Source of the DNA: Lysobacter changpingensis
Lineage (GTDB): Bacteria; Pseudomonadota; Gammaproteobacteria; Xanthomonadales; Xanthomonadaceae
NCBI RefSeq assembly: GCF_017308985.1
Contig: NZ_JADWPE010000001.1
Location: 1-64,000 of the forward strand
Length of the DNA stretch: 64,000 bases
Reading direction: 5' to 3'
Every line of letters begins with the position of its first letter. Positions within the stretch are counted from its first letter, which is position 1. The translations under genes and the position numbers were made by a program. Positions 12,121 through 35,942 of this stretch are shown here, in pieces. The notes beneath the pieces are model-generated. The model did no database searches. It saw nothing but the letters and a program-made list of their open reading frames with translations, and was not told the DNA's origin.

Positions 12121-12134
12121 TTGATATAGGTCAA
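12121..12134 (-). promoter_or_regulatory. FNR-type box of nirK
   Basis: TTGATATAGGTCAA is a near-perfect FNR/Anr palindrome. Its proximal edge is 22 bp from the hexamer TAATGT on the minus strand (12093-12098), the geometry of a class II activated promoter centred at -41.5. The predicted start of transcription is about 12086, giving a leader of roughly 35 bases. Confidence 0.85.
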
Positions 12135-14477: not shown

Positions 14478-14738
14478 ATGATCGCCGTGCACAACCCGCA
14501 ACCGCTCGACGAGCGCGAAGCGCGCATCACCCGCGCACTGCGCGAATTCGATCCGGACGCCGTCGTCGATTTCGAATCCGAAAACGGACAGCTGAGCATC
14601 TCGACCGTGCTCGACGAACTGGAGGTCATCGCCATCCTCGGCGGCCTCGGCGTGGACGCGGCGCCCAAGCGCGTCCGTGGCGAGGACGAGGACGCCCATC
14701 GCGAGGGCGGATGCTGCGGCGGCTGTGGCTGCGGCTGA
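14478..14738 (+). CDS. small HMA-like protein with CCGGCGCG tail
   Basis: An 86-aa acidic protein, paralogue of the gene at 8738-8971. The core pattern is ARITRALREFDPDAVVDFES, then GQLSISTVLDELEVIAILGG and LGVDA: helix, strand, helix of a heavy-metal-associated-like fold without its CxxC. The C-terminus is an Asp/Glu/His-rich stretch followed by GGCCGGCGCG, a compact four-cysteine cluster. It is the first gene of an FNR-controlled operon and is followed after 21 bp by ubiD, ubiU and ubiV. A metal or Fe-S delivery role for that operon is attractive but unproven. Confidence 0.7.
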   Translation: MIAVHNPQPLDEREARITRALREFDPDAVVDFESENGQLSISTVLDELEVIAILGGLGVDAAPKRVRGEDEDAHREGGCCGGCGCG

Positions 14739-14759: not shown

Positions 14760-16268
14760 ATGAGTTTCCACGATCTGCGCCAGTTCCTCGATCTGCTGTC
14801 CGCACGCGGCCAGCTGCTCGAGATCGACGCACCGATCGATCCGGAACTGGAAAGCACCGCGCTGAGCCTGCGCGCGCTTCGCGCCCGCGGGCCGGCGCTG
14901 CTGATGCACAACCCCACCGGATCGGCGCATTCCTTACTGGGCAATCTGTTCGGCCATCGTTCGCGCATCGAACTGGCGATGGGCGACCGGCCGATCGCAT
15001 CGCTGCGCGAACTCGGCGAGCTGCTCGCGGCGATCAAGGAACCGCGCTGGCCGTCGAGCCTGCGCGGCGCGCTCGCGACGTGGCCGGAACTCGCGCAGCT
15101 GGCGCATGTCGCGCCGAAGCGCGAGCCCGATGCGGCGTTCGATGAGGAAGTGCTCGAAGGGGCGGACATCGATCTGCGCCGCCTTCCGATCCAGCGCTGC
15201 TGGCCCGAGGACGTGGACCGCCTGATCACCTTCGGTCTGGTGATCACGCGCGGCACGCGGCAGGAGCGGCAGAACGTCGCGATCTACCGGCAGCAGCCGA
15301 TCGGCCGCAACCGCGTGATCATGCGTTGGCTCGCCCATCGCGGCGGCGCGCAGGATTACGCGAGCTGGCAGGCGGCGCATCCACAGCGGCCGTTCCCGGT
15401 GCTGGTGGCGATCGGTGCGGACCCCGCGACAATGCTCGCCGCCGTGGCGCCGGTGCCCGACACGCTGTCCGAATACGAATTCGCCGGCCTCCTGCGCGGC
15501 GCGCGCACGCGCGTGTGGCACAGCGAACTGACCGGACTCGATGCGCCCGCCGGTGCGGAAATCCTGCTGGAAGGCTTCATCCATCCCGACGACACCGCGC
15601 TGGAAGGCCCGTTCGGCGATCACACCGGCTACTACAACGTGCAGGCGCCGTTCCCCGTGCTGACCGTGGAACGCATGCGCCTGCGGCGCAACGCGATCTA
15701 CCACGGCAGCTACATGGGCCGCGCGCCGTTCGACGAGCCTTCGGTGCTGTCGATGGCGCTCAACGACATCTTCGTGCCGATCCTGCGGCGCGTGTTCCCG
15801 GAGATCGTCGACTTCTACCTGCCGCCGGAAGCCTGTTCGTACCGCGTGGCGGTGGTCAGCATCCGCAAGCAGTACGCGGGCCACGCGCGGCGCGTGATGC
15901 TCGGCGTGTGGTCGTACCTGCGCCAGTTCACCTATACCAAGTTCGTGATCGTGACCGACGAGGACATCGACGTGCGCGACTGGGGCGCGGTGATCTGGGC
16001 GATCTCCACGCGCGTGGACCCGGCGCGCGACAGCGTGCTGATCGAGAACACGCCGATCGATTACCTGGATTTCGCGAGTCCAGGTTCCGGCCTGGGTTCC
16101 AAGCTCGGCCTGGATGCCACGCGCAAATGGGCCGGCGAAAGCGACCGCGAATGGGGCCGGCCGATCACGCTCGATCCGCGCGTGGAACGCCGCATCGATG
16201 CGATCTGGGAGCAGCTGAGCCGCTCGCGCAGCGGCGAAGGCGACTACGGAGGCGACGACGCGCGTTGA
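14760..16268 (+). CDS. ubiD: UbiD-family decarboxylase
   Basis: A 502-aa UbiD-type (de)carboxylase; family members use prenylated FMN to decarboxylate 3-polyprenyl-4-hydroxybenzoate in ubiquinone synthesis. Typical features are [19 protein letters not shown] at the N-terminus, [20 protein letters not shown] in the cofactor region, and [12 protein letters not shown], which carries a catalytic acidic residue. Length matches the family (about 490). Being in one operon with ubiU and ubiV, it looks like the isoenzyme of the oxygen-independent ubiquinone pathway, with a constitutive ubiD expected elsewhere in the genome. The prenyltransferase UbiX that makes the cofactor is not in this window. Confidence 0.92.
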
Positions 16269-16306: not shown

Positions 16307-17305
16307 ATGCAACTCGTCTGCCCCGCCGGCAACCTGCCGGCGCTGCGCGCGGCCATCGACGCCGGCGCCGATGCGGTGTACCTCGGCTTTCGCGACCAGA
16401 CCAATGCGCGCGCGTTTCCCGGACTGAACTTCAGCGACGATGAGATCCGCCAGGGCATCGCCTACGCCCACGCGCGTGGCGCCAGCGTCTACGTCGCGCT
16501 GAACACCTATCCCGACAGTGCGCGCCTCGCGCACTGGCATCGCGCCGTGGACACAGCCGCCGGGCTCGGCGTGGACGCGATCATCGCGGCGGAAATGGCG
16601 GTGCTCGATTACGCCTGCAAACACCATCCCGCCCTGCCCCGGCACCTGTCCGTGCAGGGCTCGGCGACGACCGCGCCGGCGCTGCGTTACGCGCACGAGC
16701 GCTTCGGCATCGCGCGCGCGGTGTTGCCGCGGGTGCTATCGGTGCAGCAGGTGGAACGCCTGTGCCGGACCGCGCCGGTGCCGCTGGAGGTGTTCGCGTT
16801 CGGCAGCCTGTGCATCATGGTCGAAGGACGCTGCCAGCTGTCGAGCTACGTCACCGGCGCATCGCCGAACCGGCACGGCGTGTGTTCGCCCGCGAAGTTC
16901 GTGCGCTGGGAGGAGCACGCCGGCGGCGAGCGCAGCGTGCGGCTGAACGACGTGCTGATCGACCGTTTCGAACCCGACGAACCGGCGGCGTATCCGACCG
17001 TCTGCAAGGGCCGGTACGGCGTCGGCGGCGAGATCTTCCACGCGCTGGAGGAACCGACCAGCCTCAACACGCTGGAACTGCTGCCGCGTCTCGCGCAGGC
17101 GGGCGTGGCCGCGCTGAAGATCGAAGGCCGCCAGCGCGGCGCCGCGTACGTCGAAGCGGTCACGCGCACCTGGCGGGCCGCGCTGTCGCGTTATCGCGAC
17201 GCACCCGCCGGATGGACGCCGCAACCGCAATGGCAATCCACCCTCTCCGCCCACGCCGAAGGTCGCCAGACCACGCTCGGCCCCTACCACCGCGCCTGGC
17301 ACTGA
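16307..17305 (+). CDS. ubiU: UbiU, O2-independent ubiquinone hydroxylation (U32 family)
   Basis: A 332-aa protein of peptidase family U32, recast as a hydroxylase component. Four cysteines that hold a [4Fe-4S] cluster are at 169, 176, 193 and 233, nearly the same numbering as in Escherichia coli UbiU (169, 176, 193, 232). The N-terminus MQLVCPAGNLPALRAAIDAG and the core FGSLCIMVEGRCQLSSY are typical. UbiU acts with UbiV to hydroxylate the ubiquinone ring without oxygen. The ATG at 16307 gives the usual length. It follows ubiD by 38 bp and precedes ubiV by 1 bp, so UbiU and UbiV should be made together, as needed for the heterodimer. Confidence 0.95.
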   Translation: MQLVCPAGNLPALRAAIDAGADAVYLGFRDQTNARAFPGLNFSDDEIRQGIAYAHARGASVYVALNTYPDSARLAHWHRAVDTAAGLGVDAIIAAEMAVLDYACKHHPALPRHLSVQGSATTAPALRYAHERFGIARAVLPRVLSVQQVERLCRTAPVPLEVFAFGSLCIMVEGRCQLSSYVTGASPNRHGVCSPAKFVRWEEHAGGERSVRLNDVLIDRFEPDEPAAYPTVCKGRYGVGGEIFHALEEPTSLNTLELLPRLAQAGVAALKIEGRQRGAAYVEAVTRTWRAALSRYRDAPAGWTPQPQWQSTLSAHAEGRQTTLGPYHRAWH

Positions 17306-17306
17306 C

Positions 17307-18188
17307 ATGCGACTGACCCTCGGTCCACTCCAGTATTTCTGGCCGCGCGAACGCACGCTGGCCTTCTATCGCGAAGCCGCGAAGTGGCCGCTGCACACGA
17401 TCCATCTCGGCGAAACCGTGTGCAGCAAGCGACGCGAGCTGCGCACGCGCGACTGGATCGCGCTGGCGGAGGAACTCGCATCGAACGATCGCCAGGTCGT
17501 GCTGTCGTCGCTGGCGTTGATCGAAGCCGAATCCGAACTCGGCGTGCTGCAACGCCTGGTCGATCACGGCGGCTTCTGGATCGAGGCGAACGATCTGTCC
17601 GCCGTGCAGCTGTGCCGCGAACGCGGCGTGCCCTTCATCGCGGGCCCCAGCCTGAGCGTCTACAACCACGTGGCGCTGGCGATGCTCATGCAGGATGGAC
17701 TGCGTCGCTGGGTGCCCGGGGTCGAACAGGGCCAGACGCTGGTCGACGAGTTGCTTCGCGCGCTCGACGCGCAGGGTTCGACGCGGCCCGAGGTGGAGGT
17801 GATCGCCTGGGGCCGGCTGCCGCTGTCGTATTCCGCGCGATGCTTCACCGCGCGGGCACTGGACGTCGGCAAGGACCAGTGCGGTTTCCGCTGCATCGAA
17901 CATCCCGACGGCCTGCCGCTGTCCACGCGTGAAGGCCGGCCGTTCCTGCGCATCAACGGCATCCAGGTGCAGGGCGAGGAACTCACCGACCTCAGTCCGG
18001 AACTGCCCGCGCTGCGCGCGATGGGCGTGGACCTGCTGCGGCTGTATCCGCAGGCCGAAGGCATGCAGGCGGTGGTCGAGCATTTCGTCGGGGCGCTTGC
18101 AACGCGTGACGCGGTCGCACCGCTGGGCCACCGCAACGGGTACTGGCACGGCGAGCCCGGCATGAGCGGCATGGCGGCGGACGCCTGA
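17307..18188 (+). CDS. ubiV: UbiV, O2-independent ubiquinone hydroxylation (U32 family)
   Basis: A 293-aa U32-family protein, partner of UbiU. The four Fe-S cysteines are Cys39 (ETVCSKRREL), Cys179 (SARCFTARA), Cys192 and Cys196 (DQCGFRC), one residue off the Escherichia coli UbiV positions (39, 180, 193, 197). The N-terminus RLTLGPLQYFWPRE is characteristic. It starts one base after the ubiU stop codon. Its own stop is only 6 bp from the stop of the convergent nadB gene, so the two FNR-box operons meet end to end. Confidence 0.95.
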   Translation: MRLTLGPLQYFWPRERTLAFYREAAKWPLHTIHLGETVCSKRRELRTRDWIALAEELASNDRQVVLSSLALIEAESELGVLQRLVDHGGFWIEANDLSAVQLCRERGVPFIAGPSLSVYNHVALAMLMQDGLRRWVPGVEQGQTLVDELLRALDAQGSTRPEVEVIAWGRLPLSYSARCFTARALDVGKDQCGFRCIEHPDGLPLSTREGRPFLRINGIQVQGEELTDLSPELPALRAMGVDLLRLYPQAEGMQAVVEHFVGALATRDAVAPLGHRNGYWHGEPGMSGMAADA

Positions 18189-18194
18189 TGCGCT

Positions 18195-19619
18195 TCACGC
18201 ATCCACGCGCCAGTGCGCGCCGAGGCTGGCCGGTCGCTGCAGCGCCGCTTCCAGCACGGCCTGCGCCACTCGCGCCTGCCATCCCGACGCTGCCATCGCC
18301 CTGATCTCGCGGATCGCACTGGCGAGGGCGAGCTTCGTCCGCACCGGTCCCGCCGCGTGCCACAGCGTGCGTCGCACCGTGGCGAGCGCGGACGCGCCCA
18401 GGCCCTCGCCCAGTGCCACGGTGCGGAACGCGTCCTCGTGCGAAACCCGCGCCGGCGCCAGGCGCAGGTGCGCGCCGAGCCAGCGACCGCAGACCACGCC
18501 TTCGAGCAGCGAATTGCTCGCGAGCCGGTTCGCGCCGTGCAGGCCGTTGCAGGCCACCTCGCCCACGGCGAAGAGATTCGGCACCGACGTGCGGCCGAGC
18601 GCGTCGGTGGCGATCCCGCCCATGTGGAAATGCGCGGCGGCGGTGACCGGAATCGGCTGCGTGCGCGGGTCCACGCCGTGCGCGCGGCAGGTGCCGGCGA
18701 CGGTCGGGAACGCACGCTCCCAGCCAGGGGTCAGACCGGTCGCGTCGATCCATACCGGGCCATCGCGCCCGGCTTCCCAGACGCGGCGCGACACCACGTC
18801 GCGCGGCGCCAGATCGCCCAGCGGATGACGGCCGCGCATCAGCCGCCGGCCGCGATGATCGCGCAACCGCGCACCGGCGCCGCGCAACGCTTCGGTGATC
18901 AGCGGCAGTCGCGGGCCGTCCGCATCGAGTGCGGTCGGATGGAACTGCACGAACTCCAGGTCGCGCGTATGCGCGCCGGCGGCCATCGCGAGCGCGAGCC
19001 CCGAACCGCTGGTCGTCTCGGCATTGGTGCTGCGTTCGAACAGCGCGCCGAGTCCGCCGGTGGCGAGCACGACGGCGCCGGCCTCGATGACTTCGATGCG
19101 CCCGTCGTCGCCGCGCACCTCCACGCCCGCCACGTTGCGGCCCCGCATCAGCAACGACTGCACGCTCGCGCCCGTGCGCCGATGCACGTGGGCCGCGCGC
19201 GCAAGGCGGGCCTGCAGCGCGGCGACGACGCATTCCCCGGTGCGGTCACCACCCGCGTGCACGATGCGATGCACGCCGTGCCCGCCTTCGCGCCCGAGCT
19301 GCAGGCCCTGGCCATCGCGATCGAAACCCACGCCCATCACCTGCAGCCACGCGACCGCATCGGGCGCCGCGCCGATCACCGACCAGGCGATCGCCGCATC
19401 GTTGTGGAACGCGCCCGCCTGCAAGGTGTCGGCCACGTGCGCGCGGACGCTGTCGCCGGCGGCCAGCGCCGCCGCGATGCCGCCCTGCGCGAGGCGGCTG
19501 CTGCCGATGCCGCCGGGGTCGAGCAGGATCACCTCGCGCGGCGCGGCCGACAACGCCACGCTCAGGCCCGCGACGCCAGCGCCGACCACGACGACGGGCG
19601 GCGTCGCGGGCCGTCTCAC
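18195..19619 (-). CDS. nadB: L-aspartate oxidase
   Basis: A 474-aa flavoprotein that oxidises L-aspartate to iminoaspartate for NAD synthesis. Signs are the FAD-binding VVVVGAGVAGLSVALSA at the N-terminus, SSRLAQGGIAAAL (succinate dehydrogenase/fumarate reductase family), HPTALDADGPRLPLITEALRG, and LFAVGEVACNGLHGANRLAS near residue 345. The C-terminus is shorter than in Escherichia coli NadB (about 540 aa). NadB can use fumarate in place of oxygen, which suits anaerobic expression. Its start overlaps the nadA stop by 4 bp; it is the last gene of the CM-ubiT, nadA, nadB operon. Confidence 0.93.
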   Translation of the reverse strand: MRRPATPPVVVVGAGVAGLSVALSAAPREVILLDPGGIGSSRLAQGGIAAALAAGDSVRAHVADTLQAGAFHNDAAIAWSVIGAAPDAVAWLQVMGVGFDRDGQGLQLGREGGHGVHRIVHAGGDRTGECVVAALQARLARAAHVHRRTGASVQSLLMRGRNVAGVEVRGDDGRIEVIEAGAVVLATGGLGALFERSTNAETTSGSGLALAMAAGAHTRDLEFVQFHPTALDADGPRLPLITEALRGAGARLRDHRGRRLMRGRHPLGDLAPRDVVSRRVWEAGRDGPVWIDATGLTPGWERAFPTVAGTCRAHGVDPRTQPIPVTAAAHFHMGGIATDALGRTSVPNLFAVGEVACNGLHGANRLASNSLLEGVVCGRWLGAHLRLAPARVSHEDAFRTVALGEGLGASALATVRRTLWHAAGPVRTKLALASAIREIRAMAASGWQARVAQAVLEAALQRPASLGAHWRVDA

Positions 19620-20635
19620 ACGTGCTCCAGCCGGCCGGCGTCGAGCATCCGTTCCAGCGCCCGGCGCGCGCGTGCGGACACGTCCGCCGGCACCGTCACT
19701 TCATGCCGCAACTCCTTCAGGCAGGCGTGGATGTTCGGCAGCGTGATGCGCTTCATGTGCGGACACAGGTTGCAGGGCTTGATGAACTCGACGTCCGGGA
19801 ACCGCGCGCGCAGGTTGTCGGCCATCGAACATTCGGTGATGAGCGCGACGCGCCTGGGCCGTGCCTTCTCCAGCCAGCGTCCCATCGCGGTGGTGGAGCC
19901 GACGAAGTCGGCTTCGGCCTGCACGTCGGGCGGGCATTCCGGGTGCGCCACCAGGGCCGCGTCGAAGCGCTCGCGCGCATGCCGCGCCTGCTGCACGGTG
20001 AACTGCTCGTGCACCTCGCACCGGCCGTTCCACAGCACCAGTTCGACGTCGACCTGCGCGGCGACGTGCGCGCCGAGGAAGTTGTCGGGAAGGAAGATCA
20101 CCTTCTCCGCGCCCATCGCGCGCACCACCTGGACGGCGTTGGCCGACGTGCAGCAGGCGTCGGATTCGGCCTTCACCGCCGCCGACGTGTTGACGTAGGT
20201 GACCACCGGCGCGCCGGGATGGCGTTCGCGCAGCGCACGCACGTCGTCGGCGGTGATCGACGAGGCCAGCGAGCAGCCGGCTTCCAGGTCGGGAATCAGC
20301 ACCGTGCGTCCGGGCGCGAGGATCTTCGCCGTCTCGGCCATGAAGTGCACGCCGCACAGCACGATCAGTTCGGCGTCGCACGTGGCCGCGGCCTGCGCCA
20401 GCGCGAGCGAATCGCCGGTGACGTCGGCGACGCCGTGGAAGATCTCCGGCGACTGGTAGCTGTGCGCCATGATCACCGCGCCACGCTCGCGCTTGAGGCG
20501 TTCGATCGCGTCGATCCACGGCAGGTGCAGCGTGAGTTCCAGGCACGGCACCAGCGGCGCCAGGCGCTCAATCAGGTCGGCATGCCGCGTTTCGAGTTCG
20601 GGATGCCAGTACGGCATCGCGTCGTCCGCGCTCAT
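19616..20635 (-). CDS. nadA: quinolinate synthase A
   Basis: A 339-aa enzyme that condenses iminoaspartate with dihydroxyacetone phosphate to quinolinate. Three cysteines for the oxygen-sensitive [4Fe-4S] cluster are in VLCGVHFMAET, DACCTSANAVQ and CNLCPHMKRITL, as in known NadA. VIMAHSYQSPEI near the N-terminus is the substrate-binding signature. It overlaps both neighbours by 4 bp (ATGA junctions), so CM-UbiT, NadA and NadB are tightly coupled. nadA-nadB linkage is common, but joining it to ubiT under an FNR box is unusual. nadC is not in the window. Confidence 0.94.
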   Translation of the reverse strand: MSADDAMPYWHPELETRHADLIERLAPLVPCLELTLHLPWIDAIERLKRERGAVIMAHSYQSPEIFHGVADVTGDSLALAQAAATCDAELIVLCGVHFMAETAKILAPGRTVLIPDLEAGCSLASSITADDVRALRERHPGAPVVTYVNTSAAVKAESDACCTSANAVQVVRAMGAEKVIFLPDNFLGAHVAAQVDVELVLWNGRCEVHEQFTVQQARHARERFDAALVAHPECPPDVQAEADFVGSTTAMGRWLEKARPRRVALITECSMADNLRARFPDVEFIKPCNLCPHMKRITLPNIHACLKELRHEVTVPADVSARARRALERMLDAGRLEHV

Positions 20636-21468
20636 GCGATGGCCTCATGCGTCGCGCGATGCGCCGCGCGCGCGGCGCGCAAGGTCCGGGCGGTGCGATG
20701 CAGCGCGATGCGTACGCCGAGCGGAAGCGTGTCCCACGGCAGGCGATCGAGCAGGTTGCGCACGGTGAGGCCGAGTTCGACGTCGCCGGTCAGCTTCAAT
20801 CTTCGCTGGAAGAACAGCGTGTCCGCGTCCTCCTGGCGGCTGCTGAGCAGCAGCAGGTCGGTGGCGCTGCCGTGCACCACGGCTTCGGCGGGCTCGTTGG
20901 TGCGATGCAGGCCGCCGTCGCGCAGTTCGAGCACCCAGCGCAGGTCGAGGTCGGTCACCTCGATGCCGAGTCGCCGATGGGCGACGACGGAGAGATCGTC
21001 GCCATCGAGCGACCCGGCCAGCGCGTTCGAGAGCACGTGTTCGGCGAGCAGGTCGCGCAGGTTCCGCGGCACCAGCGACAGCGGCAGGCGCCAGTAACGC
21101 GGCGGTGGAAGCAGCCGCAGCGCCGAACGGCGCGTCGGTCTGCGGGCCGACTTCCGTGCGCGCGTTCCGGCAACGTTCGCCTGCTGCTGGCAGGCGTCCG
21201 TCACGAGCGCTTCCATCAGGTGATCGGCGGACGCTGCCGGCACGCGCAGGCGCCCCGCGAGCCGGCGCGCGCGTTCGTGCACCTGTTCCTCGCGCAGGAG
21301 GTCGCGCATCGGAACCTCCAGCGCCCGCTTCGCCGGCGCGACCGCCGAGACCAGCCGCCTGCGCGCGGCCAGCAGCACGATCATCGCGTCGTCGACGCGG
21401 TCGATGCCGAGCCGCGCGCCATGCAGCGCCAATCGCGCGACGTGTTGCGTCGAGCCGATCCGGATCAT
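20632..21468 (-). CDS. ubiT: chorismate mutase-UbiT (SCP2) fusion
   Basis: A 278-aa two-domain protein. Residues about 12-96 form an AroQ-type chorismate mutase. Set against Escherichia coli mutase residues 11, 28, 39, 48, 51, 52 and 88, the matching residues are Arg19, Arg36, Lys47, Asp56, Arg59, Glu60 and Gln96 at identical spacing, so it should be active; only Ser84 is replaced (Ala92). A basic linker follows (97-130). Residues about 135-258 are an SCP2 lipid-binding domain of the UbiT type (SLVPRNLRDLLAEHVLSNAL, DTLFFQRRLKLTGDVELGL). UbiT binds ubiquinone precursors for UbiU/UbiV. A GGAGGGG site precedes the ATG; an FNR box and TAGCAT -10 lie upstream. First gene of its operon. Confidence 0.88.
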   Translation of the reverse strand: MIRIGSTQHVARLALHGARLGIDRVDDAMIVLLAARRRLVSAVAPAKRALEVPMRDLLREEQVHERARRLAGRLRVPAASADHLMEALVTDACQQQANVAGTRARKSARRPTRRSALRLLPPPRYWRLPLSLVPRNLRDLLAEHVLSNALAGSLDGDDLSVVAHRRLGIEVTDLDLRWVLELRDGGLHRTNEPAEAVVHGSATDLLLLSSRQEDADTLFFQRRLKLTGDVELGLTVRNLLDRLPWDTLPLGVRIALHRTARTLRAARAAHRATHEAIA

Positions 21469-21525: not shown

Positions 21526-21539
21526 TTGACGCAGGTCAA
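21526..21539 (-). promoter_or_regulatory. FNR-type box of the CM-ubiT-nadA-nadB operon
   Basis: TTGACGCAGGTCAA is a perfect palindrome. The hexamer TAGCAT on the minus strand (21498-21503) is exactly 22 bp away, the class II layout. Predicted transcription start is about 21491, leaving a leader of some 23 bases with the GGAGGGG ribosome site. Confidence 0.85.
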
Positions 21540-21745: not shown

Positions 21746-22171
21746 CGCGGTCAACTCGCCCGCACGAGGCGCCATGTCACGTCACGGTCGTCGATCTGTG
21801 GGAAGAAATGGCCGTGGCTCATCAACCGTGCGCCGGTGGGCACGTCTTCGTTGGCCCAGGCGCCGGGCCATGGGCATGGCTCGCCGGACTTGCATCTGGC
21901 ACCTGGCAGTTCGGTTGGGAGCCACTTCCAATGCACCGCCTGCTCGTTGAACATCGGCAGCACCTGGCCGCGTTCGCTCACGCGGAAGAACAAGCTGTCG
22001 TCATCGCGTCCGCGCCAAAGGCCGATGCGAGGTGCCGGTTGACCGCTTTGCAGTTCGGTGGCCGGAGGCGGCGGCAAGGGACAGCGTTGGTCGATGTCGG
22101 GGAAGGCCTTGCCGGGCTCTTCGTCCTGTTCGCTGCGCATCTGGTTGTAGCACGCCGCGCGCACAGGATCC
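21723..22171. repeat. near-identical direct repeat (second copy at 22915-23363)
   Basis: About 450 bp are almost the same at 21723-22171 and 22915-23363. The block covers the 3' third of each Sel1 gene, the gap and the first codons of the next copy. Identity falls sharply beyond it into the 5' parts of the genes. This pattern indicates recent unequal recombination or gene conversion within a tandem array. Confidence 0.8.
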
Positions 22172-22938
22172 TTAGCGAGGCCGTAGTCACCCTCATCGAA
22201 CAACGCATAGAGCATATAAAGGCTTTGACTATGGCCGAGTGCTGCCGCCTTCTGGAAGTACGGTAACGCCCGACCGACGTCAGCCTCTGCGAAGTGCATT
22301 CCGAGCGTATGCCCCGCTTCTGACAACCCTTGTCCGAGCGCACATTCCAGCATCTGAATGCCGATGGCTTCGCCACGTGACTTGTCGGGCTCGGGCTCCA
22401 GCGCGAAGGCCGTAAGAATTTCATCGCCAGTAGCCCACATTCCATAGCGATACCCAAGATCTGCCGAACGGCGGAAATAGGCCAGCGCGGCCGCCTTGTC
22501 CGGCTTTACGCCGATGCCTTGCTGCAAATGTATGCCCATTCCGTAATAGCCCATCGGCACATTCATCTGCACCAGACGCTCCGTGAGTTCAAGCGCCTTC
22601 TCATCATCCTGTGGGACGCCCGTGCCCTCGGCGTACAGTATCGCCAGGTTATTGATCGCCTTGTAGTGACCACGCTCCGCCGCCTGCTGGTACAGCCGGA
22701 CCATCTCCGCGTCGTTGCGTTCATCATCCAACTTATGTAGCGCACGAGCGCGCTTGAACCACACGTCCGCCTCCGGATCCATAGCTGGATTCCGCTCTTC
22801 GGTGCACGTGAACTGCAGGGCCTTCCAGTCGACCTTTGCCGCGATACTGTTGTCCGTATCGGCATGGCAACCGGAGCCCATCAGCGAGAGGCCGAGCGCG
22901 AGCAGCAAGCGCCATGAAGAGCTGCGCGATGACAGCAT
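21751..22938 (-). CDS. Sel1-repeat lipoprotein, probable immunity protein (copy 2)
   Basis: A 395-aa exported protein. The ATG at 22938 opens a lipoprotein-like signal (LALGLSLMGSGC). Residues about 60-270 hold Sel1/TPR-like repeats with the motif A-x-x-x-G-x-x-x-A, for example AERGHYKAINNLAILYAEGTG and AAALGHSQSLYMLYALF. The C-terminal 120 residues (QPAPRIGLWRGRDDDSLFFRV to the end) are a separate beta-rich domain, nearly identical to that of the upstream copy. Sel1 proteins beside type VI phospholipase D effectors act as periplasmic immunity proteins. Copy 2 probably guards against the same or a variant toxin. Confidence 0.82.
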   Translation of the reverse strand: MLSSRSSSWRLLLALGLSLMGSGCHADTDNSIAAKVDWKALQFTCTEERNPAMDPEADVWFKRARALHKLDDERNDAEMVRLYQQAAERGHYKAINNLAILYAEGTGVPQDDEKALELTERLVQMNVPMGYYGMGIHLQQGIGVKPDKAAALAYFRRSADLGYRYGMWATGDEILTAFALEPEPDKSRGEAIGIQMLECALGQGLSEAGHTLGMHFAEADVGRALPYFQKAAALGHSQSLYMLYALFDEGDYGLAKDPVRAACYNQMRSEQDEEPGKAFPDIDQRCPLPPPPATELQSGQPAPRIGLWRGRDDDSLFFRVSERGQVLPMFNEQAVHWKWLPTELPGARCKSGEPCPWPGAWANEDVPTGARLMSHGHFFPQIDDRDVTWRLVRAS

Positions 22939-22943
22939 CACGA

Positions 22944-24110
22944 TCAACTCGCCCGCACGAGGCGCCATGTCACGTCACGGCCGTCGACTTGCGGGAAGAA
23001 CTGGCCATGGATCATCAACCGTGCGCCGGTGGGAACGTCTTCGCTGGCCCAGGCGCCGGGCCATGGGCATGGCTCGCCGGACTTGCATCTGGCACCTGGC
23101 AGTTCGGTTGAGAGCCACTTCCAATGCACCGCCTGGTCGTTGAACATCGGCAGCACCTGGCCGCGTTCGCTCACGCGGAAGAACAAGCTGTCGTCATCGC
23201 GTCCGCGCCAGAGACCGATGCGAGGGGCCGGTTGGCCGCTTTGCAGTTCGGTGGGCGGAGGCGGCGGCAAGGGACAGCGCTGGTCGATGTCGGGAAAGGC
23301 CTTGCCGGGCTCTTCGTCCTGTTCGCTGCGCATACGGTCGTAGCACGTCGCGCGTACTGGATCTTTATCTAGGCCATAATCACCCGCATCGAAAAGCGAG
23401 TACAGCATGTAGAGGCTTTGGCTGTGCCCCAGCGCCGCCGCCTTCTGAAAATAGGCAAGCGCACGGCCCACATCAGGCTCCACAAAGAACATGCCAAGCT
23501 TATGACCTGCATTGGCCAATCCTTGCCCGAGTGCACATTCGAGCATCTGTATCCCGATGGCTTGCCCGCGCGACTTGTCAGGCTCCGGCTCTAGCGCGAA
23601 TGCGGTGAGGATCTCATCACCAACAGCTGCCATGCCATACCGATTCCCCATGTCCGCGGCCTTGCGGAAGTATGCCATCGACGCAGCCCGGTCCGTCTGG
23701 ACCCCAATACCCTGCTGCAAATAGGTTCCCATCAGGTAGAACCCCTGCGGAACATTCATACGCATCAGTTGCTCAGCCAGCTCTACGGCCTTGCCATCAT
23801 CAGCTGGAACGCCCGTGCCCGTGCTGTACAGCAGCGACAGATTGTGGATGGCTTTGTAATGACCGCGCTGCGAAGCTTCCTGATACAGCCGAACCATCTC
23901 CGCATCATTTCGCTCGTTGTTGAGTTTCTCCAACTCGCGAGCACGCTTGAACAGGTCGTCCACATCGGACTCAAGCGGCGGATTCTGTTCCTCAATGCAG
24001 GTGAACTGCAGAGATTTCCATTCGATCTTTCTGACTTGCATGTCCACTCCGTCGCGCGCAGTGCAACTGGTTACCAATACAGCAACAAGCGCCATCAGAA
24101 CTTTAACCAT
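22944..24110 (-). CDS. Sel1-repeat lipoprotein, probable immunity protein (copy 1)
   Basis: A 388-aa lipoprotein with lipobox VTSC at residue 16 (MALVAVLVTSCTARDG). It has the same plan as copy 2: Sel1 repeats (ASQRGHYKAIHNLSLLYSTGTG, ADMGNRYGMAAVG, AAALGHSQSLYMLYSLF) and a conserved C-terminal domain. Its ATG overlaps the stop of the phospholipase D effector gene by one base, the tight coupling expected of a toxin and its antidote. The 5' two-thirds diverges from copy 2 while the 3' third is nearly identical at DNA level, so the variable half may set toxin specificity. Confidence 0.86.
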   Translation of the reverse strand: MVKVLMALVAVLVTSCTARDGVDMQVRKIEWKSLQFTCIEEQNPPLESDVDDLFKRARELEKLNNERNDAEMVRLYQEASQRGHYKAIHNLSLLYSTGTGVPADDGKAVELAEQLMRMNVPQGFYLMGTYLQQGIGVQTDRAASMAYFRKAADMGNRYGMAAVGDEILTAFALEPEPDKSRGQAIGIQMLECALGQGLANAGHKLGMFFVEPDVGRALAYFQKAAALGHSQSLYMLYSLFDAGDYGLDKDPVRATCYDRMRSEQDEEPGKAFPDIDQRCPLPPPPPTELQSGQPAPRIGLWRGRDDDSLFFRVSERGQVLPMFNDQAVHWKWLSTELPGARCKSGEPCPWPGAWASEDVPTGARLMIHGQFFPQVDGRDVTWRLVRAS

Positions 24111-32312: not shown

Positions 32313-34586
32313 TCAAGCCCGGGCCGGCTCCACCGCGGGTGCCGCGACTCGCCGCGGCGCCACCCAGAGGCGGAAGACGAACCACGCCAGCGCGAGCGCA
32401 CCCACGCTGAAGATCGTGTCGGCCGGAACGCGCATCCACACCAGCAGGTCGACGATCGGCTGCTGCATGAACTCGGCCGAACGCGCGTACCAGTAACCGT
32501 GGTCGAGCGCCGCATTGAGCTGCAGGATGCCCAGCGGCAGCAGCGTGAACGCCGCCATTCCGGCCAGGCCGATGTTGAATGCCCAGAAGCTGGTGCGCAG
32601 GACCTTCTCGTTCCACTCCACGTCCGGCTTCAGGCCGCGCAGGCAGAACAGCATCAAGCCGATGCCGAGCATGCCGTACACGCCGAACAGCGCGGTGTGG
32701 CCGTGGGTCGGCGTCAGGTTCAGGCCCTGCATGTAGTACAGCGACAGCGGCGGGTTGATCAGGAAGCCGAACAGCCCCGCACCGACGAGGTTCCAGAACG
32801 CCACCGCGATGAAGAACATGATCGGCCAGCGGTAGCGCTGCATCCACGGCGTGGCCTTGCCCATCTTGTAGCTCTGGTAGGCCTCGAAACCGACGTACGC
32901 CAGCGGCACCACTTCCAGCGCGGAGAAGCTCGCGCCCAGCGCGATGACCGCCGTCGGCGTGCCGGTGAAGTACAGGTGGTGCAGCGTGCCGAGCACGCCA
33001 CCGGCCATGAACACGATGGTCGCGAACAGCACCGCGATGGTCGCCGTCCTCACCTGCAGCAGGCCCAGGCGCGTGAACAGGAACGACATCACCGCGACCG
33101 CGAAGACCTCGAAGAACCCTTCCACCCACAAGTGCACGACCCACCAGCGCCAGTATTCGACCATCGACAGCGAGGTGTGCTCGCCCCACATCAGGCCGGC
33201 CGCGTAGAACAGGCCGATCGCGACGGTGGACAGGAACAGCAGCACCACGATCGAACGCGACTCGCCGCCGCCCCTGATCGCCGGCCACAGCGAGCGGCCC
33301 ACCAGCGTCAGCCACAGGCCGAGGCCGATGAACAGGAACCACTGCCAGAAGCGGCCCAGGTCCACGTATTCCCAGCCCTGGTGACCGAACCAGAAATTGC
33401 GTTCCAGGCCGAGCTTCTGCATCACCGCGAACCACTGCCCGGCGAACGCGCCGACCACGATGATCAGCAGGCACACCCACAGCAGGTTGACGCCCAATCG
33501 CTGGAATCTGGGCTCATGCCCGGAAATCGCCGGCCCGATGTACAACCCCATGCCGAGCCACGCGGTGGCGATCCACAGCACCGCCAGCTGCGTGTGCCAG
33601 GTGCGCGTGAGCGAGTACGGCAGCACGTCGGCCAGCGCGAAGCCGTACGCCTGCTGGCCTTCGACCTGGTAGTGCGCGGTGATCGCGCCGAGCAGGATCT
33701 GCGTGAGGAACAGCGCGATCACCACCCAGAAGTACTTGGCGGTGGCCTTCATCGACGGCGTCACCTTGATCGACGCCAGCGGATCGGTCTTGGGCAACGT
33801 CGGCGCCAGTTCCTCGCCATGGTTGACCGCGTAATGCCAGCCCAGCAGCGCGATGCCGGCGATCAGGAACAACACGCTGAACACCGTCCACACGAACGCG
33901 CCGGTGGTCGGCTTGTTGCCGACGAGGTCGTCGGCCGGCCAGTTCGCCGTGTAGGTGATGTCCGAACCCGGGCGCTCCGTCACCGCCGCCCACGACGTCC
34001 ACCAGTAGAACGCGGTCAGCTTGCGGCGATGTTCGGCGTCGGGAATCGTGTCGTTGCGCATCGCATACGCTTCGCGCAGTTCCGCCGTGGCCGGATCGTT
34101 GCCGAACAGGCTGGTGTAGTGCGACGCGACGGCCTGGATCGCCTCGATGCGATCGGCATCCAGCTGGATCGTCTTCGTCGCCTCGTCGTAGGTATTGGGC
34201 CGCAGCAGCGCCTGCACGCGCGCCTCGTAGGTCGCGCGGATGCCGGGCTCGAGCTTTCTGTAGCTGTCGACGCCGCCTTCGCGCTTCGCCCAGACGTCCA
34301 TCACCGCCTCGGCTTCGCGGTGCAGCCAGTCGGCACTCCAGTCCGGCGCGACGTAGCCGCCGTGGCCCCAGATCGAGCCCAGCTGCTGCCCGCCGATCGA
34401 CTGCCACACCTGGCGGCCGGTCTCGATGTCCTTGCGCGTGAAGACCACTTCGCCCTCCGGACCGACCACCTGTTCGGGCATCGGTGGCGACTGGCGGTGG
34501 ATTTCGCTGCCGACCCATAGCAGGACGGCGAACGAAGCGATGAGCAGGGTCGCCAGCCCCACCCACAACTTTCGGGTCGAATTCAT
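32313..34586 (-). CDS. norB: quinol-dependent nitric oxide reductase (qNOR)
   Basis: A 757-aa single-subunit NO reductase (NorZ type) that reduces NO to N2O with quinol electrons. The N-terminal helix and periplasmic domain (about 1-215, with QQLGSIWGHGGYVAPDWSAD) replace the NorC subunit of cytochrome-c-dependent enzymes. The catalytic core shows heme and FeB histidines in RTWHTQLAVLWI, WWVVHLWVEGFFEVFA and GTLHHLYFTG, and PTHGHTALFGVYGM. Length fits qNOR (about 760). A GGAGTG site precedes the ATG, and an FNR-type box lies 56 bp upstream. It is transcribed alone, ending at a clear terminator. Confidence 0.95.
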   Translation of the reverse strand: MNSTRKLWVGLATLLIASFAVLLWVGSEIHRQSPPMPEQVVGPEGEVVFTRKDIETGRQVWQSIGGQQLGSIWGHGGYVAPDWSADWLHREAEAVMDVWAKREGGVDSYRKLEPGIRATYEARVQALLRPNTYDEATKTIQLDADRIEAIQAVASHYTSLFGNDPATAELREAYAMRNDTIPDAEHRRKLTAFYWWTSWAAVTERPGSDITYTANWPADDLVGNKPTTGAFVWTVFSVLFLIAGIALLGWHYAVNHGEELAPTLPKTDPLASIKVTPSMKATAKYFWVVIALFLTQILLGAITAHYQVEGQQAYGFALADVLPYSLTRTWHTQLAVLWIATAWLGMGLYIGPAISGHEPRFQRLGVNLLWVCLLIIVVGAFAGQWFAVMQKLGLERNFWFGHQGWEYVDLGRFWQWFLFIGLGLWLTLVGRSLWPAIRGGGESRSIVVLLFLSTVAIGLFYAAGLMWGEHTSLSMVEYWRWWVVHLWVEGFFEVFAVAVMSFLFTRLGLLQVRTATIAVLFATIVFMAGGVLGTLHHLYFTGTPTAVIALGASFSALEVVPLAYVGFEAYQSYKMGKATPWMQRYRWPIMFFIAVAFWNLVGAGLFGFLINPPLSLYYMQGLNLTPTHGHTALFGVYGMLGIGLMLFCLRGLKPDVEWNEKVLRTSFWAFNIGLAGMAAFTLLPLGILQLNAALDHGYWYARSAEFMQQPIVDLLVWMRVPADTIFSVGALALAWFVFRLWVAPRRVAAPAVEPARA

Positions 34587-35186: not shown

Positions 35187-35942
35187 TCAGTGGCGCAGGA
35201 CGGTCAGCGCCATGGCTTCCAGCCGCGCCATGTCGAGGATTTCGACGTCCCGCTGCTTGATCGATACCAGCCCGTCGCGTTCGAACCGGCGCAGCACGCG
35301 GCTCACGGTCTCCGGCGCCTGGCGCAGGTAGTTGGCGATGTCGGTGCGCGACATCGTCAGCTGGAAGCGCCTGGGCGAAAACCCGCGCTGCGCGAGGCGG
35401 CGCGAGAAACCGATCAGGAACGCCGCCATGCGCTCATCGGCGGAATGATCGCCGGCGAACAGCGACGCCACACCGATGTCGCGGCTCATCAGGCGGAACA
35501 GGTGCCGCTGCAGGTACGGCAGGCGCGTGGCCAGCATCGCGATGCGCGGGAACGAGAACCGGCACAGCATCACCGTGTCCAGCGCCACCGCGTTGCACGG
35601 GTAGCGATCTTCATGCACGGCGTTCAACCCGATCACCTCGCCCGGCAGGTGGAAACCGAGCACCTGCTCGCGTCCGTCCGAATCGAGCATGTAGGTCTTG
35701 ACGGTGCCCGCGCGCACGGCCGCGATCGCGCCGAACGCATCGCCTTCGCGGAACACGTGCTCGCCCGCGTGCAGCGGGCCGACGTGTTCGACCAGCACGT
35801 GCAGGTCCATCAGCGCGCTCTTGTCCATGCCTTCGGACAGGCACGCCTGCGAGAACGCGCAGGTGGAACAGAAGGTCAGCGAGTCGCCGTCGTCGGCGAT
35901 GATCGATGAATCGGTGCGCGGAAAAACGATCCCGGAACTCAT
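35187..35942 (-). CDS. fnr: FNR-type oxygen-sensing regulator
   Basis: A 251-aa CRP/FNR-family regulator. The cluster ligands Cys25, Cys28 and Cys34 (FCSTCAFSQAC, spacing Cx2Cx5C as in Escherichia coli FNR) and Cys116 (RYPCNAV) imply an oxygen-labile [4Fe-4S] cluster. A cyclic-nucleotide-type beta roll follows, and the helix-turn-helix TDIANYLRQAPETVSRVLRR carries the E-x-x-S-R recognition residues that read TTGAT half-sites. It is 19 bp downstream of hemN on the same strand, so it is probably cotranscribed from the FNR-box promoter before hemN, giving autoregulation. Confidence 0.95.
   Translation of the reverse strand: MSSGIVFPRTDSSIIADDGDSLTFCSTCAFSQACLSEGMDKSALMDLHVLVEHVGPLHAGEHVFREGDAFGAIAAVRAGTVKTYMLDSDGREQVLGFHLPGEVIGLNAVHEDRYPCNAVALDTVMLCRFSFPRIAMLATRLPYLQRHLFRLMSRDIGVASLFAGDHSADERMAAFLIGFSRRLAQRGFSPRRFQLTMSRTDIANYLRQAPETVSRVLRRFERDGLVSIKQRDVEILDMARLEAMALTVLRH

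Follow-up and report, generated by a model that had tools for sequence, protein, structure and literature searches.

A chorismate mutase domain fused to the lipid carrier UbiT in Lysobacter changpingensis, a candidate prephenate source for anaerobic ubiquinone synthesis

Introduction

UbiT (YhbT) of Escherichia coli, a component of the anaerobic pathway of ubiquinone synthesis, is a protein of 174 amino acids in which SCP2 is the only domain described (PMC6747719), and its induction is dependent on FNR (PMC10470549). In this study we analysed a stretch of 64,000 nucleotides of L. changpingensis (contig NZ_JADWPE010000001.1, positions 1 to 64,000; hereafter, the window), which carries a gene joining an AroQ-type chorismate mutase (CM) to UbiT. 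The window protein is similar to E. coli UbiT in belonging to the NF047962 family, in carrying the SCP2 domain and in having UbiU and UbiV as partners, but differs by the additional CM domain. With respect to regulation, an FNR-like box at this locus corresponds to the FNR induction in E. coli.

For the CM domain, the closest described system is E. coli PheA (1ecm), with which the window protein shares the three-helix fold (1.1 Å) and seven identically spaced catalytic residues. The partner of CM in PheA is, however, prephenate dehydratase, while here it is a lipid carrier, and Ala takes the place of Ser84. For UbiT, a ubiT-ubiU fusion is known in Zymomonas mobilis (Pelosi et al. 2019, mBio, PMC6747719). 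In both organisms UbiT has a fusion partner from the anaerobic ubiquinone pathway, but this is the hydroxylase UbiU in Z. mobilis and a predicted donor-making enzyme in the window.

The U32 protein TrhP requires prephenate, and TrhP, RlhA and CmoA have all been described as prephenate-dependent (PMC6599085). The hydroxyl group of anaerobic ubiquinone was stated to come from prephenate in a Metallomics review (PMC11574389), crediting Ferizhendi et al. (PNAS 2024, doi 10.1073/pnas.2321242121); the same review noted that direct evidence of U32 enzymes catalysing prephenate-based hydroxylation is still to be demonstrated. The locus described here agrees with TrhP, RlhA and UbiUV in that prephenate is the metabolite needed by the U32 enzymes, but differs in the dedicated mutase fused to, or lying beside, the pathway, none being described for those systems in the text available. 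The original prediction proposed prephenate as the donor of UbiUV; this agrees with the review, and the idea is not new, having been published by Ferizhendi et al. (2024). The new element is UbiT with a new partner domain, CM. As had been supposed, no description of a CM-UbiT fusion was found in searches of the accessible open literature, which did not cover the text of Ferizhendi et al. (2024). The terms 'chorismate mutase' and 'prephenate' are both absent from the main text of the ISME J 2024 and mSystems 2026 papers, and 'prephenate' is absent from the mBio 2019 paper (PMC6747719).

Architecture and predicted structure of the fusion

The open frame at 20632-21468 lies on the minus strand, a point that the original prediction did not give, and encodes a product of 278 amino acids, with the following segments.

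20632..21468, minus strand: CM-UbiT fusion gene; residues about 12-99 AroQ CM, about 100-118 linker, 131-246 UbiT/SCP2
21172..21432, minus strand: segment encoding the AroQ CM domain (residues about 13-99; coordinates computed from the residue range)
20731..21078, minus strand: segment encoding the UbiT/SCP2 domain (NF047962 match)

Residues 19-96 matched Pfam CM_2 at 45.7 bits (cut-off 27), residues 156-241 matched Pfam SCP2 at 57.1 bits (cut-off 21.3), and residues 131-246 matched the NCBIfam UbiT model NF047962 at 118.6 bits (cut-off 46.9). The fusion of CM to an SCP2-type UbiT, claimed from the sequence at the outset, is thus supported by three models over their curated cut-offs. All curated NCBIfam CM models stayed below their own cut-offs, the best being PRK06285 with 42.6 bits against 77; this is not defining for the fold family, because these models describe stand-alone or otherwise fused mutases. 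The N-terminal part is an AroQ CM domain, the C-terminal part is UbiT, and the fusion is real.

An AlphaFold2 model of the fusion was built from 12 sequences, giving a mean predicted local distance difference test score of 71.9 and a predicted template modelling (TM) score of 0.45. It contains helices at residues 5-49, 57-73 and 78-101, a weak stretch at 102-118, and then an SCP2 fold with its strands and helices. The best Foldseek match of the model was UbiJ-SCP2 (6h6o; target TM 0.75). Against E. coli CM (1ecm_A), a target TM of 0.92 was obtained with 1.1 Å over 89 columns at 28% identity, and the model thus predicts that the N-terminal domain is of the three-helix AroQ fold, the check that the original prediction had named. 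None of the 18 solved chains found at expectation values (E) up to 0.001 spans both domains by sequence.

Three other origins of the match were rejected. A chance domain match is ruled out by the scores over curated cut-offs together with the overlay on E. coli CM. A PchB-like isochorismate pyruvate lyase is disfavoured by the much lower score of PRK07075, 12.1 bits against 42.6 for the CM model PRK06285, both below cut-off. A frameshift or assembly artefact is ruled out, as genomes of four families carry both domains in one open frame.

An in-frame ATG falls within the linker stretch (about residues 98-124) of 26 of 32 fusions, though not of the window protein, and perhaps marks the former start of ubiT. 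A consistent ribosome-binding site was not found ahead of this ATG among the 32 fusions, and an internal start producing free UbiT was not adopted.

Conservation of the mutase domain

Residues R19, R36, K47, D56, R59, E60 and Q96 of the fusion align with R11, R28, K39, D48, R51, E52 and Q88, which, together with S84, make up the catalytic list of E. coli CM. The seven residues named in the original prediction were thus all recovered with unchanged spacing; at the eighth contact, S84, the window protein has Ala.

The conservation set consisted of 64 loci, 61 of them with both domains in one open frame; 61/64 is not usable as a rate because most of the 64 loci entered via a fusion match. Left out of the set were L031, L032, L034, L037 and L039 (whose genomes are apparently represented by other loci of the set), L051 and L119 (CM-less, counted as exceptions) and the contig-split L120-L123. 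Among the 61 fusions, many of which are close relatives, R19, R36, K47, R59 and E60 are invariant, and D26 is the sole further invariant position within residues 15-96. Position 56 is Asp in 59 and Asn in two, and position 96 is Gln in 59, His in one and Leu in one. Conservation of at least 95% was found at 11 positions of residues 15-96, including all seven catalytic residues. In a set of 32 sequences, six of the seven catalytic residues fell within the nine invariant columns of 82, for which the chance is 1.6e-6 if the columns are assumed independent. Such a pattern would be expected of an active mutase, short of proof.

Distribution within the order

The closest named relatives belong to Lysobacter, Pseudoxanthomonas, Stenotrophomonas and Thermomonas. 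Among 197 genomes of the window's family (f1), UbiT was over cut-off in 46 and UbiU in 47. Both were present in 45 genomes and one only in three: UbiT without UbiU in G014 alone (82% complete), and UbiU without UbiT in G056 and G110. The co-occurrence that the original prediction asked to be checked is borne out in this family, and at the window locus the fusion is also linked to ubiU and ubiV, as it had noted, at a distance of 2.4 kb. A CM domain is attached to UbiT in 45 of the 46 UbiT genomes, G104 being the exception and the count including G151 and G168, in which the contig end cuts the gene. Beyond the 30 loci returned for the family, full reading covered G014, G104, G126, G151 and G168.

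Order-wide, UbiT was over cut-off in 80 of 299 genomes. The fusion recurs in four families, namely f1, f2 (1/1), f3 (4/4) and f12 (17 of 20 UbiT genomes, all 20 being read).

Short chorismate mutase genes beside ubiT outside the order

In a search of the class, UbiT was over cut-off in 99 of 369 genomes, of which 90 were taken on to a CM_2 search, excluding the fused G000, G010 and G029 and the weak G462, G662, G445, G704, G428 and G518. This gave 89 matches across 85 genomes (E up to 1e-5). Most of them (83/89) lie in frames of at least 318 amino acids, the size of PheA/TyrA-type proteins. None of these 83 adjoins ubiT; 13 are on the ubiT contig, the nearest 18 kb off, and the remainder are on other contigs. 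The other six frames are short (102-160 amino acids), and five of these adjoin ubiT, with gaps of 159-377 bases between the domains and CM_2 scores of 54-67 bits. The five come from as many families (G711, G573, G465, G605 and G658; loci L132, L148, L150, L151 and L152). The remaining short gene (G711, contig 3) has a stand-alone prephenate dehydratase gene as its neighbour. Four of the short genes are divergent from ubiT, with a TTGA-N6-TCAA box in between, perfect in three and with one mismatch in the other; in G573 the CM gene is located downstream of ubiT, which is itself preceded by a perfect FNR-like box. These neighbourhoods support a functional tie between CM and UbiT, which in five other families takes the form of adjacent but separate genes.

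Loci L128-L232, which stem from the searches at class and phylum level and from f12, contained UbiT in 103 of 105, and no CM was found beside UbiT in them beyond the five short genes and five f12 fusions. The phylum search gave UbiT over cut-off in 158 of 398 genomes, part of which were fetched, mostly one per genus.

All five stand-alone neighbours of ubiT retain R11, R28, K39, R51 and E52 in E. coli numbering. E. coli CM without Gln at position 88 loses activity by several orders. This position is Gln in 27 of the 29 fusions in our CM tree, and Glu in 17 and Gln in five of 22 CMs located away from ubiT. The five neighbours are possibly poor mutases because the catalytic Gln/Glu is absent at this position; they may be weak mutases or prephenate- or chorismate-binding partners.

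The tree, in which the fusions are represented by 17 of 32 family fusions and 12 others, supported a fused group (97/79) and a stand-alone group (95/80), and suggests that the two kinds of CM were recruited separately. The CM L246, the second one of G573, groups weakly with the fused CMs (91/75). Given its few columns, unsettled bootstraps, two long branches (one a stand-alone row) and the placement of L246, the tree does not settle a single against a separate origin.

In G605 (100% complete) and G658 (94% complete), the only CM_2 match is the one beside ubiT; neither gave a prephenate dehydratase match, and for prephenate dehydrogenase G605 gave one sub-cut-off PDH_N match and G658 none.

FNR-like boxes and neighbouring genes

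The palindrome TTGAY-N4-RTCAA occurs in the window in five perfect copies, at 12121, 14407, 21526, 37393 and 39360, against 0.06 expected from shuffles. Two of them bear on the pathway considered here, and are listed with the neighbouring genes.

21526..21539, no strand: FNR-like palindrome TTGAC-N4-GTCAA, its centre 64 nt upstream of the fusion start codon
14407..14420, no strand: FNR-like palindrome TTGAC-N4-GTCAA, preceding the small open reading frame, ubiD, ubiU and ubiV
14478-14738: small open reading frame ahead of ubiD, running with ubiD, ubiU and ubiV
14760..16268, plus strand: ubiD, UbiD family decarboxylase (profile matches)
16307..17305, plus strand: ubiU, U32 hydroxylase subunit (over curated cut-off)
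17307..18188, plus strand: ubiV, U32 hydroxylase subunit (over curated cut-off)
18195..19619, minus strand: nadB, L-aspartate oxidase (TIGR00551 450.9 bits, just below the cut-off of 452.75)
19616..20635, minus strand: nadA, quinolinate synthase (4-base overlap with the fusion stop; same order in many relatives)

The profile scans of ubiU began at 16346, 13 residues short of the start at 16307. UbiU and UbiV scored over cut-off as predicted, and the 2.4 kb is measured from the end of ubiV to the fusion gene. The genes nadA and nadB lie downstream of CM-ubiT in many loci (L031, L090, L098, L103, L105 and L124, for instance), not in all.

The window also encodes a nitric oxide reductase (norB, 32313-34586), an NnrS protein, a HemN-type radical S-adenosylmethionine protein, a multicopper-oxidase-like protein and, at 35187-35942 on the minus strand, a CRP/FNR-type regulator, for which the closest model was Fnr (196.7 bits, under the cut-off of 228). 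As judged from sequence, the set of norB, NnrS, HemN and the CRP/FNR-type regulator fits a denitrifier. Growth defects under reliance on denitrification have been described for ubiU and ubiV mutants of Pseudomonas aeruginosa (PMC11574389). Separately, the neighbouring minus-strand frames at 21751-22968 and 22944-24110 have closely similar translations, apparently by duplication.

Discussion

The fused CM domain probably makes prephenate as the oxygen donor of UbiUV, with donor synthesis and the lipid carrier placed on one protein; we give this reading a probability of about 0.76. Since prephenate has been published as the donor of this pathway, a dedicated supply of it borne by the lipid carrier is the best reading of the fusion. 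The supporting evidence of Ferizhendi and colleagues is reportedly genetic, together with labelling by 18O-shikimate. In the scheme proposed, the N-terminal AroQ domain would convert chorismate to prephenate, and the C-terminal SCP2 domain, of a kind described in the literature as lipid-binding, would hold the lipid ubiquinone precursor. The Fe-S U32 pair UbiU-UbiV would then use prephenate as an organic oxygen donor in O2-independent ring hydroxylations. One protein would in this way unite donor synthesis with the acceptor lipid, and delivery may be local. The FNR-like box on the fusion gene resembles the one ahead of ubiD, ubiU and ubiV, and may have a regulatory role. Ubiquinone for denitrification would thereby be spared competition with PheA for prephenate.

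Several observations weigh against this reading. The Gln at position 96 is gone in two of the 61 fusions, and the five stand-alone neighbours have V, A, G, D and T at the corresponding position 88. Within the order, no CM was present at ubiT in any of the 11 loci read, out of 35 UbiT genomes, from f7, f8, f9 and f11. Even in families with the fusion, UbiT is CM-less in G404, G422 and G352 (f12), in G104 (f1) and in Pseudoxanthomonas sangjuensis (L051). A permissive CM search gave no match at any of the five loci, and ubiU and/or ubiV share the locus with the CM-less UbiT in all of these except G352. Outside the order, ubiT lacks an adjoining CM in 85 of the 90 UbiT genomes. The box is not general, being ahead of the fusion in 14 of 36 loci of one set (which includes some near-copies) and in one of 25 of another. 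The L. changpingensis genome itself has a PheA-like frame with CM and prephenate dehydratase domains. No CM_2 match was found in five of the 90 UbiT genomes (G732, G736, G529, G778 and G458, 99, 94, 85, 88 and 86% complete, respectively), in a profile search in which AroH-type mutases were not included; within the same limit, PDT and PDH_N matches were also absent from G732, G736 and G778. The idea of the fusion as the sole CM of the cell is ruled out by the CM domain of PheA. As PheA also carries CM and some lineages lost the domain, the fused CM would be helpful, not essential.

Two of the CM-less loci deserve description in their own right. In G352 (L099), conserved residues of UbiT are changed, ubiU and ubiV are not on the locus, and the gene lies beside nadA-nadB; UbiT or its pathway looks like one in decay there. 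In L097 (G404), a membrane-protein-like stretch ahead of UbiT replaces the CM domain in the open frame.

A wider proposal, tentative and on balance doubtful, is that AroQ was recruited to the ubiT locus at least two times, once as a fused active mutase and once, in the five other families, as a separate protein without the catalytic Gln/Glu, expressed divergently from ubiT or jointly with it, which would be a prephenate-carrying or docking subunit that hands the donor to UbiUV. It is also conceivable, and in our judgement unlikely, that CM serves as a structural or docking module, dimerising UbiT or holding chorismate or prephenate without turnover. AroQ proteins are obligate dimers, and the absence of Gln/Glu at position 88 in the five stand-alone neighbours, with its loss in the two fusions, would fit such a role. 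Most of the domain drifts, however, whereas each of the seven catalytic residues is kept in 59 to 61 of the 61 fusions. This argues against a pure scaffold because a scaffold would not need them.

That the fusion is a general CM for phenylalanine and tyrosine, joined to UbiT by happenstance, seems highly improbable: the domain is canonical AroQ by profile, fold and residues, but a PheA-like frame with CM and prephenate dehydratase is present in the same genome, and in the family the fusion tracks the presence of ubiU rather than occurring in all genomes. Equally slight is the chance that the prephenate is meant for TrhP, RlhA or CmoA, described as prephenate-dependent (PMC6599085), with UbiT joined through shared anaerobic regulation only, as ubiT is the fused or adjacent partner and the short CM genes share FNR-like boxes with ubiT.

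With the fused CM read as a prephenate supply for UbiUV, the CM-UbiT fusion would provide independent genomic support for the published prephenate donor. It also offers a handle for reconstitution, in which one polypeptide could be fed chorismate instead of prephenate and its domains switched singly. Through the stand-alone CM neighbours the link between CM and ubiT reaches into other families, and they hint that a partner dedicated to binding prephenate may exist. If the proposal of two recruitments with a docking subunit is true, donor delivery, beyond donor synthesis, would be an unrecognised step of O2-independent hydroxylation.
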